Virus record (IMG/VR): IMGVR_UViG_3300042691_004590
Span: 1 to 36,626 of that record
Length of the DNA: 36,626 nucleotides
From: a virus
Strand: one strand, 5' to 3'
Each line of letters opens with the position of its first letter. Positions within the stretch are counted from its first letter, which is position 1. Under the pieces are notes generated by a model. The model saw only the letters and a program-made list of their open reading frames with translations. It ran no database searches and had not been told where the DNA came from. The translations under genes were made by a program, and so were the position numbers. Of this stretch, positions 9,797 through 15,489 are shown in pieces.

Positions 9797-10957
9797 TTAC
9801 CTGAATGAGTACTTACCTAGATGGCTGTTGCTTATCTTGTTCACTACAGAGTACCTCATTGCATCAAGTCCATGATTAAAATTGTCCACAGGTTTGTTGG
9901 TCATTTGCCCATTCTTATCCTCAATATACTTGTAGTTTCTTAACTCCTTTATCAGGTTGTAACTCCTGTCTGTTGCAAATAGCCTATACCTCCTAATAAT
10001 ATCAATACCTAAATTGATTGCTCCCTTTATGGTAGGCTTTACATTCCATCCCATCCTGTATATTTCTTCAATGCTTTTAGGTTCAGCCGAATCAGCAAAT
10101 ACCTCATTACTTTTGTCTAGTCCCAAGTTCTGCATTTCCTTAGCTATATCCTGATTGGTCATGCCTGTCCTGTATATCAATTCATCTACATACATATTAT
10201 CATTATCCAAATATGTTCTAACAAGTGCAGTCGGGTCATTGCTAAAGCCAAAGTCTAATCCATAAGATATTAACTTTGCTTCTTTTGGTATTTCCTTACA
10301 GGTTGAAAATGAATAAACTAGACTTCTACTTTGTCCTCTCTCACCAAGACCATACACCCTCCAATAATTAGCATCAATGTCTTTAAGCCTCTCAATCTCT
10401 GCTTTTACTACATCACCTAGAAAGGGATTGTCCTTGTATGTAGTCTGAAAAAAGTCCACATCTTGCCTAGTCAGTACATTATCATAAATCCAATGAAACT
10501 CCTCCGAAGGGTTGTAGTCTAGTATTGCCCTTTCATTTGTCCTGAATATAAGCTGCTGCCAATCTTCGTATGTCAGTTCGTTTGCTTCGTTTACAAATAA
10601 CAAGTCCCTTTTCCTACCCCTTATCTTTTGAGGCATATCAAGGCTGATAAACTCAATTGTGTTTCCGTTTATGTAGTATTCATTAGCTGTCTTGTTATGG
10701 TACTCCTCAGAATACAAGTCATTATCCTTGATTATTTGAAAAAAGTCACGCATTACCGTACCTCTCAATGCAGGGAATGACCTACGGCAAATGGTAACTA
10801 TCTTGCCTGTGTGCTTCTCACAATAGCTTAACAATATCCATAACAATATATTGTAAGTCTTGCCTGACCTAGTTCCACCCTGTTCAACGACTATCTTTGC
10901 TTTGCTGTTTTCAAGGTGGCTGTAAACTTTATTGGTTTTTATTCTAACCTTCTCCAT
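9797..10957 (-). CDS. terL: Terminase large subunit, 386 aa
   Basis: DNA-packaging motor ATPase and nuclease of the PBSX/Terminase_3 type. Walker A is GGTRSGKT at residues 27-34. Walker B is LLFVNEAN at ~119-126 with the catalytic Glu. The RNase H-like nuclease half has the expected acidic residues: D235 in SYGLDFGFSNDP, D289 in FADSAEP, and D365 in NHGLDAMRY. The length is slightly short of the usual 400-450 aa but both domains are complete. Its start overlaps the small terminase gene by 14 bases in another frame, so the two are co-translated. It acts with the small subunit at the portal to cut and package concatemeric DNA. Confidence 0.96.
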   Translation of the reverse strand: MEKVRIKTNKVYSHLENSKAKIVVEQGGTRSGKTYNILLWILLSYCEKHTGKIVTICRRSFPALRGTVMRDFFQIIKDNDLYSEEYHNKTANEYYINGNTIEFISLDMPQKIRGRKRDLLFVNEANELTYEDWQQLIFRTNERAILDYNPSEEFHWIYDNVLTRQDVDFFQTTYKDNPFLGDVVKAEIERLKDIDANYWRVYGLGERGQSRSLVYSFSTCKEIPKEAKLISYGLDFGFSNDPTALVRTYLDNDNMYVDELIYRTGMTNQDIAKEMQNLGLDKSNEVFADSAEPKSIEEIYRMGWNVKPTIKGAINLGIDIIRRYRLFATDRSYNLIKELRNYKYIEDKNGQMTNKPVDNFNHGLDAMRYSVVNKISNSHLGKYSFR

Positions 10958-11330
10958 CTATAATCTCTACTTCAAATAGCTTTTGCCCATTTGCTCCTGT
11001 CAGTTCTTGCCTCTCCACATAGCCTCTATTCTTTCCCTTTGTTTTTAGGTAGAATATGATTGCCGTAATGTTTCCATCCAATATTTGCCTTTTGAGTGCT
11101 GTTTCTGCCGAATCTATGTCGCCTTCCTCCAATGCTGTTATCTTGTCCCTAAAAGCATTATCCTCCTTCATCCATTTGTAAAAGGTTACCCTTTCTATAC
11201 CGACAGCCTTGCAAGTCAAATGAATATTATTTGCCTTTTGGCTGTACACCTCAAGAAACTCCTGCTTTTTCTTCTCCCTGTTTTGTTGCCTAGCCTCAAT
11301 GGACTTTTCTAGTGCTTTACTCTTTGCCAT
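10944..11330 (-). CDS. terS: Terminase small subunit, 128 aa
   Basis: Helical DNA-binding protein. A Lys/Arg/Gln-rich N-terminal helix is followed by a helix-turn-helix, NIHLTCKAVGIERVTFYKWM (~35-54). A C-terminal section with DSAETALKRQILDG and AIIFYLKTKGKNRGYVE follows; this block is characteristic of phBC6A51-type small terminases. The start at 11330 is preceded by an A-rich leader with no Shine-Dalgarno. It overlaps terL by 14 bases. Expected role: recognises the packaging site and recruits the large subunit. Confidence 0.9.
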   Translation of the reverse strand: MAKSKALEKSIEARQQNREKKKQEFLEVYSQKANNIHLTCKAVGIERVTFYKWMKEDNAFRDKITALEEGDIDSAETALKRQILDGNITAIIFYLKTKGKNRGYVERQELTGANGQKLFEVEIIDGEG

Positions 11331-11359: not shown

Positions 11360-11965
11360 TTATAGCCAACTACTCTCTATCCATGGGTAATGCTTTGTAC
11401 CCATATCTATTTCTAATAAAATACTATTGGATTGAGCATACTCATGAGTCAATCCGTAACTTAAGCAAGTAGGACCTGACAGGTACACATCTCCATTCAC
11501 CGCCTTTGTAAGCCTTATCAGTTCATCTATGCCTCCGTTAGTAACCTCCGAAATAGTACTTGCCAATACAAACTCGGTTTTTATATTAAACAATTTACTC
11601 AAGTACATGAGTCCTTTTACTAGGCATCCTGTGTAATTAGTTGTGGTCATGTTTGCCAAATATGCTCCGTAATACAGGTCAATCACCTCACTTTTGTAGT
11701 ATTCATGCACTTTGTTAATATGGTCAATCTTCCAATTCAACCCATCAATAATGGTATCTTTTATCAATGCCCTACTGCTAGACTTGATAGGTATGGTTAG
11801 CCATTTCTCTACTCCTGCCATATTCTTAATCTTGTTCCTATTCTCAAAGCCTCGTTCTACCCTTTGTACTGAGTCCAATACAATAAACACATCTGCCATC
11901 TTTATCCTGTCTAGGTAGCCTTCACTAGGCAAATATCTAGGCTGACTAATCATTACTTTCTTCAT
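11360..11965 (-). CDS. WbqC-family protein, 201 aa
   Basis: Matches the WbqC-like family: SQPRYLPSEGYLDRIKMAD near residue 7, FIVLDSVQ, RGFENRNKIKN and WLTIPI, in the usual order, ending with a Y/W-rich stretch (HYPWIESSWL). Chromosomal members lie in O-antigen and polysaccharide loci; I know of no firmly established reaction for the family. Here it is the last gene before the terminase and follows a 34-aa membrane peptide and a PIG-L deacetylase. Context suggests modification of a sugar, either on the host envelope or attached to phage DNA. It has no signal peptide and is therefore cytoplasmic. The start overlaps the 34-aa gene by 20 bases. Confidence 0.85.
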   Translation of the reverse strand: MKKVMISQPRYLPSEGYLDRIKMADVFIVLDSVQRVERGFENRNKIKNMAGVEKWLTIPIKSSSRALIKDTIIDGLNWKIDHINKVHEYYKSEVIDLYYGAYLANMTTTNYTGCLVKGLMYLSKLFNIKTEFVLASTISEVTNGGIDELIRLTKAVNGDVYLSGPTCLSYGLTHEYAQSNSILLEIDMGTKHYPWIESSWL

Positions 11966-12050
11966 CAGGTAACCTGTTAATTTGTTTTAACATATCTACT
12001 ACTCCATACAGAGTAACTATAACTAACAATACTATTGCTCCAACTATCAT
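11946..12050 (-). CDS. Small single-pass membrane peptide, 34 aa
   Basis: ATG at 12050 overlaps the PIG-L stop in an ATGA arrangement, and the stop lies 20 bases inside the WbqC gene. The product is a hydrophobic helix (residues ~2-18, MIVGAIVLLVIVTLYGVV) followed by a short charged tail ending ...LPDEESND. The 4-base coupling and clean membrane-helix-plus-tail design support a real gene. Function unknown. It could anchor or recruit neighbouring sugar enzymes to the inner membrane, or act as a small inhibitor; both are inference. Confidence 0.6.
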   Translation of the reverse strand: MIVGAIVLLVIVTLYGVVDMLKQINRLPDEESND

Positions 12051-12712
12051 AATATTCCCCTCACTAATTTGTATGCCTCAGCATATTTAACACCAATATG
12101 CATACCATAGAATATTGCCCAACCTTCTATACCTTTTGCACCTCTCAGTTCAGCCATGCTTTCTACCTCAAAAACATACTGCTCCATTGCTAACTTCTTG
12201 GTTTCTATGTACTTACTAATATCTAAGAACAAATTAGGCTGAAAGTTGAACTGCGGATTAATTTCACTACTGCTAATTACAGGCATCTCCAATACAGCCT
12301 TTACAGGGTTATTAGCTGTAAACCTACAAGCTACCATTGTAGCTGCATTTACAACCTTGTGGTCTTGGTGCAAGTCATTAGATATGTGTGTAATCACCTT
12401 AGCAGGTCTTAACTTTTTGACCCATTTGCTTACGATATCATTAACTGACCTTTGTGGGTATGTATCAAACTCCCCTGTTGTAAGGGTTTCTACTATAGGT
12501 TTAAACTTTAAGATTTGGCTAACTTTAACAATCTGCTGCAATATTGTAGCTGCATCAAAGTCCTTTCTGTAGTGGCAGCCATTATTTAAGTACAATACAT
12601 AGTTTTCACCCTTCTGAGCATGGTTTTCTAGCAGTAAACCTGCACAACCTAGTACCTCATCATCAGGGTGAGCAACTACAACTAATAGTCTTTTTTTTAA
12701 ATCATGCTTCAC
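12047..12712 (-). CDS. PIG-L/LmbE family deacetylase, 221 aa
   Basis: Zinc-dependent N-acetyl-sugar deacetylase fold. The signature AHPDDEV is at residues 14-20 and the second metal motif HQDH at ~115-118 (with H109 nearby), giving the complete Zn-binding and catalytic set. The family removes acetyl groups from GlcNAc-containing substrates such as GlcNAc-PI and mycothiol or bacillithiol precursors, and from some antibiotics. No signal peptide, so cytoplasmic. The ATG overlaps the stop of the RarA-C-like gene by 1 base, and its stop overlaps the 34-aa membrane gene by 4. With the glycosyltransferase and WbqC genes nearby, it probably works on an amino-sugar, but the substrate cannot be read from sequence. 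Confidence 0.88.
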   Translation of the reverse strand: MKHDLKKRLLVVVAHPDDEVLGCAGLLLENHAQKGENYVLYLNNGCHYRKDFDAATILQQIVKVSQILKFKPIVETLTTGEFDTYPQRSVNDIVSKWVKKLRPAKVITHISNDLHQDHKVVNAATMVACRFTANNPVKAVLEMPVISSSEINPQFNFQPNLFLDISKYIETKKLAMEQYVFEVESMAELRGAKGIEGWAIFYGMHIGVKYAEAYKLVRGIL

Positions 12713-13317
12713 TAGAACAATTGTGGGTTATATGTTTCTTCAGTCTTACTTACAGGCTTGTTTCTTGCATCTCTGTCATAATATTGTTGGGCAACCTTGT
12801 CCCTAATTTCATACTCATCAGGCATTACATCATTGGTTATGGTAGCAGCCTCCTCGTAAAAATGCCTATTACCTCTGCCCTTCTTTTTACCTTCAATGGT
12901 ATGCAAACAATATACATAGTCATCAAACTCAGGGGTTTGGATATTGTTACGCAGGTCAAAATATTGACACAACAGGTTATCTACTATCCTAGATTTGGGA
13001 CTCCTGACTAACAACAGGACTGCATGAACAAAGGGAAGTTTTTCAGGGCAATGCTTGTTCTTCTCCTTCTTCATTTCAACATAGGTTTGGTAAAGTGCAT
13101 GGATTTGGGCAGGAAGCATAGGGTTTGCCAAGCCTACATCTTCAGATACCATGACCTTGATTCTTTTCCATGCATAGTTATCAAAGCCACTCATGAATAG
13201 TTCGGAGAACCAATATAAAGCCTTATGCTCATCTCCTCTCCGAACATACTTTTGGATTGCACTAGCTACCGTATAAAAGCTGTGTCCACCAATTGTTTCT
13301 AACTTGTAATCAGACAT
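12712..13317 (-). CDS. Stand-alone RarA/MgsA C-terminal-domain protein, 201 aa
   Basis: The N-terminal half closely resembles the C-terminal (MgsA_C) domain of the replication-associated AAA+ ATPase RarA/MgsA/WRNIP1: FYTVASAIQKYVRRGD, ALYWFSELF and VMVSEDVGLANP (SEDVG at 58-62). The AAA+ ATPase part is absent, with no Walker A or B. In RarA this region forms the tetramerisation/clamp-loader-collar-like part. The last ~70 residues (KGRGNRHFYEEAA...) are hydrophilic and unassigned. A possible promoter lies just upstream, so it may start a transcription unit running into PIG-L. Possible roles: mimic of, or partner for, host RarA at forks, or a structural scaffold for the cassette. Both are inference. 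Confidence 0.75.
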   Translation of the reverse strand: MSDYKLETIGGHSFYTVASAIQKYVRRGDEHKALYWFSELFMSGFDNYAWKRIKVMVSEDVGLANPMLPAQIHALYQTYVEMKKEKNKHCPEKLPFVHAVLLLVRSPKSRIVDNLLCQYFDLRNNIQTPEFDDYVYCLHTIEGKKKGRGNRHFYEEAATITNDVMPDEYEIRDKVAQQYYDRDARNKPVSKTEETYNPQLF

Positions 13318-13339
13318 AATGATTTGGTTTGTTGTCTTA

Positions 13340-13371
13340 TAAAGTTACGAATAAAATTGGTTTGAAAAAAA
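13340..13371 (-). promoter_or_regulatory. Possible Bacteroidota-type promoter (weak -33)
   Basis: The -7 box TAACTTTA is at 13340-13347, preceded by CG as in the 23.2 and 24.1 kb promoters. A T-rich TTTTT replaces the -33 TTTTG at the same 19-nt spacing. It lies in the only non-coding gap of the cassette (71 bases) and would give a leader of about 18 nt for the RarA-C-like gene. Confidence 0.4.
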
Positions 13372-13388
13372 TATTTATGCCATAATAT

Positions 13389-13964
13389 TTACTTTTTCAG
13401 TAAAATAATAAACTCATATTTTTCAAACAACTGAATCTGAATCTTTAACTGCATCAGATTAGCCAACTTTATCCATCTATTCATATCATGGTAAAACAAC
13501 TTCGGGTCTTTGTAATCAACTTGGTCATGGAAGCCATTAACAATAACTTGGTCTTTAACTGATTTCAATATATTTTTTAATTGAATTACGACATTGTTCC
13601 AATACTGCACATCATTCATTTTGCCTCTCAATGTCCAAACACCGATTAGCACAGCTATATCACATTCAGGTATAACACCTTTCCCATCACAATGAATAAC
13701 CTGCAACTCAGGGTGCATATCATTAGCTGCATCAACATATTCTTGGAATGAGTCCATGCCTAAGTAATCAACCTTGTTGCTTACATACTTAGAAAAATTA
13801 CCAATGCCACAACCATAGTCCACAATTGATTGTGTTTTAGGTGGGATTAGCTTGGCAATTTGCTTGTACCTTTTTACAGCCTTTACTTCATTATCCCAAC
13901 CTACTTGCTTAATAGGGTCACTTTCTGTCTTTAACTTTTCTTGATAAAATTCTTTGCTTGTCAT
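13389..13964 (-). CDS. Class I SAM-dependent methyltransferase, 191 aa
   Basis: Rossmann-type methyltransferase. Motif I is SIVDYGCGIGNFS (residues ~47-58), followed by the acidic end of strand 2 (YLGMDS, D71) and an acidic motif (VIHCDGKG). The next strand, IAVLIGVWTL, lacks an NPPY/DPPY motif, so it is unlikely to be an ordinary N6-adenine or N4-cytosine DNA methylase. Small-molecule, sugar or protein substrates are more likely. It starts 2 bases after the glycosyltransferase ends, so the two are probably in one operon and may act on the same product. Confidence 0.82.
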   Translation of the reverse strand: MTSKEFYQEKLKTESDPIKQVGWDNEVKAVKRYKQIAKLIPPKTQSIVDYGCGIGNFSKYVSNKVDYLGMDSFQEYVDAANDMHPELQVIHCDGKGVIPECDIAVLIGVWTLRGKMNDVQYWNNVVIQLKNILKSVKDQVIVNGFHDQVDYKDPKLFYHDMNRWIKLANLMQLKIQIQLFEKYEFIILLKK

Positions 13965-13966
13965 AT

Positions 13967-14725
13967 TTAAAATGGTATTCTAAGTGTTCTTTCGTATTCA
14001 TTAGCAAGACTTTTCCTCATGCTAGTGCTTTTCTTCTTTTGTATAGCTGCTCCAAAATATTCCTTCAATAAATAGTAATCATGCTTTTCAGTATCTAAAG
14101 TCCTATGCTCTGCCATGCCTCCTGTAGATATGAAAGTACCTTCCTTACTAGTAAATGCATACCTTGTATTTATAAAACATTTCCTATGAAAGTGTGCATT
14201 AATAGCTGACACAAAAAAGTCACAAGCAGATACACACTCATCAGGCAATATCATTTTGAAACCTTCAAAAAATCCCATACTACCACCAATAGCAAAGCCT
14301 GACAACTTGTATGGTTTCATGCCTGAGTAATCTACAGGTCTAGCAGTATTACTAAACCCAAACATCATGCAACCTGCTTCTTTTGCTGTGAATGCTGTAC
14401 TTTGAATAATATCATAAGCTGTGTCCATATCAACTCTATTGCCCTCATCAAATTCCTTATCTACATAGGTTCTGCTCATCCTATTCAGGTCATCATCAAG
14501 CATCACACAATTAGGGTATCTTTCATGTACCCACCTCATCTTTGCACTCAATCCTTTGATGCTGTCAGGGTGTACAATCATCTCTACATCTCCATTGTAT
14601 TTTAGATAGTCTTCTACTTGACTTTCAGGTACACACAAACTACAATTGCTGATAGTATCAAGGGTATCTACCTTGTTGCTTCTTTTGTGGCTAAGAATAA
14701 TTAACTTAACTATTTCTTTCATCAA
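13967..14725 (-). CDS. GT-A glycosyltransferase, TET-associated (TAGT)-like, 252 aa
   Basis: N-terminal strand KLIILSHKRSNK and a nucleotide-sugar fold lead to CVMLDDDLNRM, where D77-D79 form the DXD-type metal motif. A glycine/aromatic-rich segment (LSGFAIGGSMGFFEG) and SACDFFVSAINAH follow, ending with a basic C-terminus. The layout resembles the phage glycosyltransferases described with TET/JBP base oxygenases that glycosylate modified bases, but no TET/JBP gene is in this window. It overlaps the ParB-like gene by 20 bases. It may glycosylate phage DNA or a host surface sugar. Glycosyltransferase call is firm; DNA substrate is inference. Confidence 0.75.
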   Translation of the reverse strand: MMKEIVKLIILSHKRSNKVDTLDTISNCSLCVPESQVEDYLKYNGDVEMIVHPDSIKGLSAKMRWVHERYPNCVMLDDDLNRMSRTYVDKEFDEGNRVDMDTAYDIIQSTAFTAKEAGCMMFGFSNTARPVDYSGMKPYKLSGFAIGGSMGFFEGFKMILPDECVSACDFFVSAINAHFHRKCFINTRYAFTSKEGTFISTGGMAEHRTLDTEKHDYYLLKEYFGAAIQKKKSTSMRKSLANEYERTLRIPF

Positions 14726-15329
14726 TTATCCTTTTAAACTCATCAAATGTTACAACTCTCCCTTGCCCTACTTTGCTACTTTTGTAGTCTTTTTGGTCTG
14801 ACAAATTAAAGAATGTCTTAAGATAGGAGTACTCAATTTCATTGTCTGCAATAATCATAACATAGTCATGCTTTTCTGACAATCTTGGGGTTATAGGATA
14901 TATGCAATCTTCTTCTTCCTCCTCCTCTGACCTTAGTTCTTCAATCTCCTGTATAGCCAAATCTGTTGCACCTAGTCCCCAATCAAGTAACTTATTCAAG
15001 TCCCATTCATTAGCTAACATTTCAGCATCCCATGTACCAAAGTTTACATTGTCTTTAATGATAAACTCCTTTTGTTCTTCGGGAGTCAAGTCATCTGCCA
15101 AAACAATAGGCACTTCAGTTAATCCTGCTTCTTTACAAGCCTTTAGCCTCATGTTGCCACCTAATACAACCATATTGCCATTGACAACAATTGGTCTAAT
15201 CTCCAACATTTTAGGAAACTGCCTAATAGAATTAACTAGCTTGTAAAACTTGTTATTCTTAATGATTCTTGGGTTATCGGGATTAGTTTTTATCTCCGAT
15301 ATCTTCACTAATTTGGTTTGCATCTTCAA
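14706..15329 (-). CDS. ParB/sulfiredoxin-domain protein, 207 aa
   Basis: ParB N-terminal-like domain: KISEIKTNPDNPR, LVNSIRQF, RPIVVNGNMVVLGGNMRLKA (GGNMRLKA at 57-64), then EVPIVLADDLTPEEQKEFIIKDN. This phage-type ParB-like fold often precedes DNA-modifying enzymes and some members cut or nick DNA or hydrolyse nucleotides. The C-terminal half has a run of Glu residues (~134-140) and an unassigned globular part (HDYVMIIADNEIEYSYLKTFF). No HTH typical of partition ParB was seen, so plasmid partition is unlikely. It overlaps the 68-aa gene upstream by 47 bases (41 if M3 is the start) and the glycosyltransferase downstream by 20. Confidence 0.85.
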   Translation of the reverse strand: MKMQTKLVKISEIKTNPDNPRIIKNNKFYKLVNSIRQFPKMLEIRPIVVNGNMVVLGGNMRLKACKEAGLTEVPIVLADDLTPEEQKEFIIKDNVNFGTWDAEMLANEWDLNKLLDWGLGATDLAIQEIEELRSEEEEEEDCIYPITPRLSEKHDYVMIIADNEIEYSYLKTFFNLSDQKDYKSSKVGQGRVVTFDEFKRIIDERNS

Positions 15330-15489
15330 TCATTGATTCTGTTAATGTGTTTGCTATTCCTGCATTGTCCAACAATGACTTAAACATATTTGCTAGTTGA
15401 AATATGCCATCATCATCTAACAAGGTTACACTAACAACTTTCTTGTCGCTGCTGAAATTCAATTGAAACGGCTTGTGTTCTTTACTCAT
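15283..15489 (-). CDS. Small hypothetical protein, 68 aa
   Basis: Begins MSKEHKPFQLNFSSDKKVVS after an A-rich leader. A short beta region precedes an amphipathic helix (LANMFKSLLDNAGI) and a polar C-terminus. No motif recognised. It is translated in a different frame over the start of the ParB-like gene, suggesting coupling. Its role may be linked to the cassette or to the basic 40-aa gene upstream; nothing more can be said. Confidence 0.6.
   Translation of the reverse strand: MSKEHKPFQLNFSSDKKVVSVTLLDDDGIFQLANMFKSLLDNAGIANTLTESMIEDANQISEDIGDKN

Follow-up and report, generated by a model that had tools for sequence, protein, structure and literature searches.

Gene content and borders of the block

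IMG/VR virus record IMGVR_UViG_3300042691_004590, analysed whole (36,626 bp; hereafter the window), carries at positions 11,360 to 15,489 a compact block of genes directly beside the terminase genes, which is probably a phage DNA hypermodification cassette. The virus is a small phage of Bacteroidota-type bacteria. Its genome is probably complete, since the window ends, when joined, give one continuous 793-amino-acid (aa) open reading frame (ORF) and the ends of a 36,487 bp sister contig overlap by 139 nt with 98.6% identity. A first-pass annotation made from the sequence had described seven genes in a row here, and all seven ORFs are where it placed them, on the minus strand and followed by TerS and TerL. 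Gene identities were assigned using Pfam with curated cut-offs, PHROGs families, PDB sequence and structure comparison, and predicted models.

15283..15489, minus strand: 68-aa ORF; overlaps the ParB start; no family match; kept only in the nearest relatives
14706..15329, minus strand: ParB-like protein (ParB_N fold), 207 aa; PF02195 1.3e-7, above cut-off; phrog_498/620
13967..14725, minus strand: GT-A glycosyltransferase of the TET-associated glycosyltransferase (TAGT) family, 252 aa; PF20691 2.4e-13; phrog_842 5.7e-12
13389..13964, minus strand: S-adenosylmethionine (SAM) methyltransferase, 191 aa; Methyltransf_23/25 0.002 (Methyltransf_23 0.0017), weak and below cut-off
12712..13317, minus strand: stand-alone RarA/MgsA C-terminal helical protein (RarA-C), 201 aa; MgsA_C PF12002 8e-10
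12047..12712, minus strand: PIG-L (LmbE/BshB-like) de-N-acetylase, 221 aa; PF02585 2e-16
11946..12050, minus strand: 34-aa membrane peptide ORF; only in this genome; cassette membership doubtful
11360..11965, minus strand: WbqC-family protein, 201 aa; PF08889 6.6e-31; predicted BshC-like fold
10944..11330, minus strand: terminase small subunit TerS; phrog_4044 6.7e-8; immediately downstream of the cassette
9797..10957, minus strand: terminase large subunit TerL; PF04466 1.4e-19

Two details of the original block did not hold. Position 15489 is the end of the 68-aa ORF upstream of ParB rather than of ParB itself, and this ORF is 75-77% identical in two relatives (L002/L003; L numbers are our locus labels) with no match in two others (L005/L006). 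The 34-aa peptide, with a hydropathy of 2.50 across 19 residues, has no counterpart in any IMG/VR relative compared, where the WbqC reading frame opens right at the end of PIG-L or overlaps it, and it was rejected as a conserved cassette component. None of the cassette enzymes has a membrane segment.

Catalytic motifs and family assignments

The motifs reported in the first-pass annotation (HPDDE and HQDH, DDD, motif I and GGNMRLKA) are all present. TAGT scores 50.9 bits against a PF20691 cut-off of 27.5 and matches phrog_842, the 'beta-glucosyl-HMC-alpha-glucosyltransferase' family of T-even phages. Its DDD motif (GT-A metal binding, residues 77-79) is invariant across 19 sequences, and at 76-93% identity in L002-L006 it is the best conserved enzyme of the block. 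PIG-L (61.1 bits, PF02585 cut-off 28.2) retains intact HPDDE and HQDH motifs, with H15, D17, D18 and H118 invariant in nine cassettes, and WbqC reaches 108.3 bits against a PF08889 cut-off of 21.3. The ParB-like gene precedes a glycosyltransferase (GT) or TET gene in nearly all related loci and constantly accompanies base-modification genes in phages.

The methyltransferase (MTase) resembles class I enzymes weakly; its best PDB match is the structure of a tRNA methyltransferase (5cm2, 5e-5). Its sequence contains neither [DNS]PP[YFWH], the DNA methyltransferase motif IV, nor a PC/PCQ motif. A DNA methyltransferase role was rejected because these catalytic motifs are absent, and the sequence points to an enzyme of the small-molecule type. 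RarA-C scores 39.3 bits against an MgsA_C cut-off of 27, and its model (pLDDT 92) matches C-terminal fragments of RarA-family proteins (8g28, Z 16.4; 3pvs, Z 15.4). It shares this helical domain with RarA/MgsA but is encoded by a stand-alone gene of ~200 aa, MgsA_C being the sole domain found in its 201 aa, with no N-terminal AAA+ ATPase domain.

Co-inheritance of the cassette with the terminase

The order ParB-TAGT-MTase-RarA-C-PIG-L-WbqC-TerS-TerL is kept in IMG/VR relatives, which share six of the seven block genes at 44-93% aa identity. In the more distant L005/L006, TAGT is 76% and TerL 62% identical, whereas genes elsewhere have moved far apart in sequence or escape detection; the cassette and the terminase remain linked even though the surrounding genome has changed. 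Relative to L003, dN/dS is 0.02-0.12 for ParB, TAGT, the methyltransferase and PIG-L; for RarA-C and WbqC dS is saturated, with pN of 0.09 and 0.21, respectively. Because the six genes recur in order among relatives and dN/dS is low, the block is more than a chance arrangement. Scattering of the individual enzymes among related phages, which the first-pass annotation had named as the observation that would count against a cassette, was not seen and is rejected. A nucleotide search with the block against annotated phages gave no match. In six further loci (L046, L047, L049, L050, L052, L054) WbqC and PIG-L lie on the strand opposite to ParB-TAGT-MTase-RarA-C, and a second, longer ParB protein (~410 aa) is encoded upstream.

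RarA-C belongs to the core of a widespread cassette class

A pattern scan of IMG/VR using the RarA-C alignment alone recovered 80 loci, forming 43 clusters at 70% identity. Within 8 kb of RarA-C, 38 of the 43 clusters have ParB, 37 have a GT (TAGT or GT4) and 36 have both. A TAGT search of GTDB genomes, made from the other direction, gave 16 loci, all in Bacteroidota, and every one of the 14 with an intact TAGT and enough sequence holds ParB and RarA-C within 9 kb. A minimal form, ParB-TAGT-RarA-C-terminase, is found in L042/L043. RarA-C is thus a core part of a cassette class that is widespread, a point which is new here and had escaped the first-pass annotation. No literature linking RarA or PIG-L with phage hypermodification was found, in a search outside which most subscription journals lay. 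The association suggests that RarA-C proteins encoded on their own have a part in modification.

TAGT occurs with TET, a thymidylate synthase homologue or RarA-C, in this sample never with two of them

The point of greatest interest is the entry enzyme, which the first-pass annotation had described as missing or different. The searches bear this out. The window contains no TET/JBP oxygenase (PF12851 and a profile of nine phage TETs) and no thymidylate synthase (TS) or TS-fold dCMP hydroxymethylase (PF00303); its relatives likewise lack PF12851, and the nearly complete relatives of ~36 kb lack PF00303. Tet_JBP occurs in 0 of 71 RarA-C-bearing records, the nine-TET profile finds none in their loci, and RarA-C occurs in 0 of 9 TET phages, a set drawn from annotated phages, since a search with the Altadena TET protein found no relatives in IMG/VR. 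A TS homologue is present in four TAGT records (L118, where it stands beside TAGT, and L124-L126), all without RarA-C, and in none of 40 RarA-C records in the same search. In this sample a TAGT therefore has at most one of three partners: TET, a TS homologue or RarA-C. This exclusion is an association and not proof of substitution, because records entered each set on account of the genes they carry and some of the phages are related to one another. Read from gene content, RarA-C appears to mark a third, TET-less and TS-less class, in a scheme that is incomplete given six contigs with none of the three.

In L118 (10776-11810), the TS homologue and a PD-(D/E)XK nuclease come directly after TAGT, which gives a different group of phages an entry route of the T-even type. 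Mycobacterium phage BrownCNA (L130:785-1759) and other Bclasvirinae encode a TET/JBP-like oxygenase (PF12851, 5.5e-6) in which an HRD motif and a later H are invariant across nine phages; the RefSeq label 'queuine tRNA-ribosyltransferase' on several of these looks like a misannotation.

A predicted BshC-like fold for the WbqC protein

The final step of bacillithiol synthesis falls to BshC, which puts cysteine on the glucosamine amine freed by BshB, itself a PIG-L enzyme. The WbqC model (pLDDT 91) aligns with Bacillus subtilis BshC (4wbd) over 196 of 201 residues (Z 12.8, root-mean-square deviation 3.0), and the structural runner-up reaches Z 8.5. A BshC-like fold, also absent from the first-pass annotation, is thus predicted for WbqC, a likeness that by itself shows no function and that spans only part of the 540 aa of BshC. 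The WbqC profile gave nothing meaningful against PDB sequences. PIG-L and WbqC are adjacent in most loci that have both. The sequence of GT, PIG-L and BshC-fold protein follows the same chemical order as the bacillithiol enzymes BshA (GT), BshB (deacetylase) and BshC (ligase), although TAGT is of the GT-A type whereas BshA is a GT4, WbqC has 201 aa against 540, and the acceptor is presumed to be DNA. Bacillithiol synthesis proper was rejected given that PIG-L falls below the equivalog cut-offs of both BshB1 (TIGR04001, 5.8e-11, 42.5 bits against 182.5) and BshB2 (36.1 bits against 195.25). For the WbqC family, so far uncharacterised, the predicted fold is a first lead to a mechanism. A strict pairing of WbqC with PIG-L is contradicted by Vibrio phage J26, described below, and in the Vibrio phage SIO-2 (L158), too, WbqC lies just upstream of TerL without GT, PIG-L or ParB.

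Related cassettes in other phages

A search for this gene neighbourhood, as the first-pass annotation had proposed, shows that phages of unrelated groups carry matching types of genes beside TerL. In the Vibrio phages V-YDF132 and VH2_2019 the order is PIG-L, WbqC, X, MTase, WbqC2, GT4, ParB, X, TerL, and Stenotrophomonas phage DLP5 has PIG-L, epimerase, aminotransferase, MTase, GT4, ParB, X, TerL. The KarBoss block matches that of DLP5, and the stretch of RcZahn examined has every gene type of the DLP5 block except the terminase, its ParB-like gene lying near the sugar genes. DLP3 carries the block of DLP5, and its DNA was resistant to 15 of 15 restriction enzymes, from which its authors inferred modified DNA (PMC7326821). 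The Delepquintavirus blocks of DLP3 and DLP5 resemble the present cassette in the order PIG-L, MTase, GT, ParB and TerL, but use GT4 rather than TAGT, include their own sugar-making epimerase and aminotransferase, and lack WbqC. A RarA-C profile built here detects a diverged copy in DLP5, RcZahn and KarBoss, which in the Delepquintavirus genome lies away from the block.

The TET/JBP loci are a second parallel. Arthrobacter phages Altadena and Bolt007 combine ParB, TET, TAGT and PIG-L, and in Mycobacterium phage Acadian the same four genes adjoin TerS and TerL, as here. They have a TET/JBP oxygenase and no RarA-C, whereas the present cassette has RarA-C and no TET/JBP. With the T-even glucosyl-hydroxymethylcytosine system the cassette shares the TAGT family (PF20691, phrog_842), but this phage has no dCMP hydroxymethylase or TS homologue and adds a deacetylase, WbqC and a methyltransferase. 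The TAGT of T2/T6 puts a second sugar on glucosylated hydroxymethylcytosine in DNA (PMC13216743; see also PMC13390438).

Discussion

The block most likely belongs to a known kind, the phage base-modification loci, as a variant without TET or TS in which RarA-C is a constant part. It most likely hangs an amino-sugar on phage DNA as armour against bacterial restriction. Modification of DNA, rather than of a surface glycan, by glycosylation, deacetylation and methylation had been favoured by the first-pass annotation and is supported: the cassette is syntenic with the terminase, the T6 TAGT acts on DNA (PMC13216743), and matching blocks occur in unrelated phages, among them DLP3 with its resistant DNA (PMC7326821).

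On balance we favour the following route, inferred from the gene set. ParB and RarA-C would recruit TAGT to the DNA of the phage, perhaps at the replication fork, and TAGT would load a base with sugar from an NDP-sugar of the host, UDP-GlcNAc being the most likely donor. PIG-L could then take off the N-acetyl group of the sugar, the BshC-folded WbqC acylate the freed amine, and the methyltransferase methylate the decoration. The decorated DNA would then be packaged, a next step that fits the position of the cassette beside the terminase. In this scheme RarA-C may hold the place filled by TET or a TS homologue in other TAGT phages, either as an entry module or as a mere fork adapter. A bolder version, which we consider possible but rather doubtful, is a third, TET- and TS-independent form of DNA glycosylation in which ParB, a GT and stand-alone RarA-C suffice on an ordinary base, the sugar here becoming an N-acylated, bacillithiol-like glucosamine via PIG-L and the BshC-fold WbqC. 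If true, such a glucosamine on DNA would be an unreported DNA modification.

How the base is made ready for the sugar is a question within the DNA-modification reading, with which its likelihood overlaps. Entry via an oxygenase, either of the host or of the phage but not recognised as such, or via a pre-modified dNTP, with RarA-C acting only as a fork-recruitment adapter, is given a little under an even chance. The helical, non-enzymatic nature of the RarA-C fold would suit an adapter, the T4 alpha-GT works with the replisome (PMC13216743), and the window contains small proteins without assignment. Against this, PF12851 found no TET in 10 whole host genomes carrying such prophages, in a search where the positive control was also silent, the nearly complete 36-kb relatives have neither TS nor TET, and the minimal blocks of L042/L043 consist of ParB, TAGT, RarA-C and terminase.

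Remodelling of host surface glycan, such as lipopolysaccharide (LPS) or capsule, against superinfection would make the place beside the terminase incidental. The WbqC and PIG-L families take their names from polysaccharide and amino-sugar pathways, and the authors of DLP3 proposed that the GT of their phage might modify LPS (PMC7326821). We nevertheless regard this as unlikely, given that the cassette enzymes are without membrane segments, that relatives of TAGT act on DNA, that phages of unrelated groups have the same genes together with ParB, with a TET or a TS homologue and with TerL, and that DLP3 DNA itself resists restriction. Still more improbable is a soluble, bacillithiol-like amino-sugar thiol cofactor or small molecule made for the infected cell: the resemblance of PIG-L to BshB and the predicted fold of WbqC would fit it, but TAGT comes from a DNA glycosyltransferase family and is not a BshA, ParB and RarA-C are DNA-linked, and PIG-L stays far under the BshB1 cut-off (42 vs 182.5 bits).

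Several observations weigh against the DNA-modification route as proposed. For this phage the cassette chemistry is a prediction from gene content, and the block of the restriction-resistant DLP3 uses GT4, not TAGT. RarA-C has the helical fold of a non-catalytic domain. Five contigs of 28-47 kb (L108, L109, L113, L114, L123) and one of 9 kb (L112) have TAGT and ParB with no RarA-C, TET or TS, so RarA-C is not needed everywhere; the five longer ones perhaps use yet another entry route. PF12851 detects the TETs of phages with low sensitivity (0.0027 for Altadena), though the nine-TET profile likewise came up empty. Neither phmmer nor profile comparison gave a sequence match between WbqC and BshC, and Vibrio phage J26 (L157) has two tandem WbqC genes just upstream of TerL with no PIG-L, GT or ParB, so the substrate of WbqC may be other than glucosamine.

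Solitary TAGT homologues have been reported in 288 of 753 phage genomes and flagged as potential new transferases (2026 paper, PMC13216743). The present analysis finds a partner set for many solitary TAGTs and makes DNA glycosylation without TET or a hydroxymethylase a testable question, with named Bacteroidota strains, Runella among them, that carry the genes (L141-L154). One of these, Arundinibacter roseus DMA-K-7a, has five separate ParB-TAGT-RarA-C loci (L141-L143, L147, L148) among the 14 intact GTDB loci, apparently five prophages or repeated elements.

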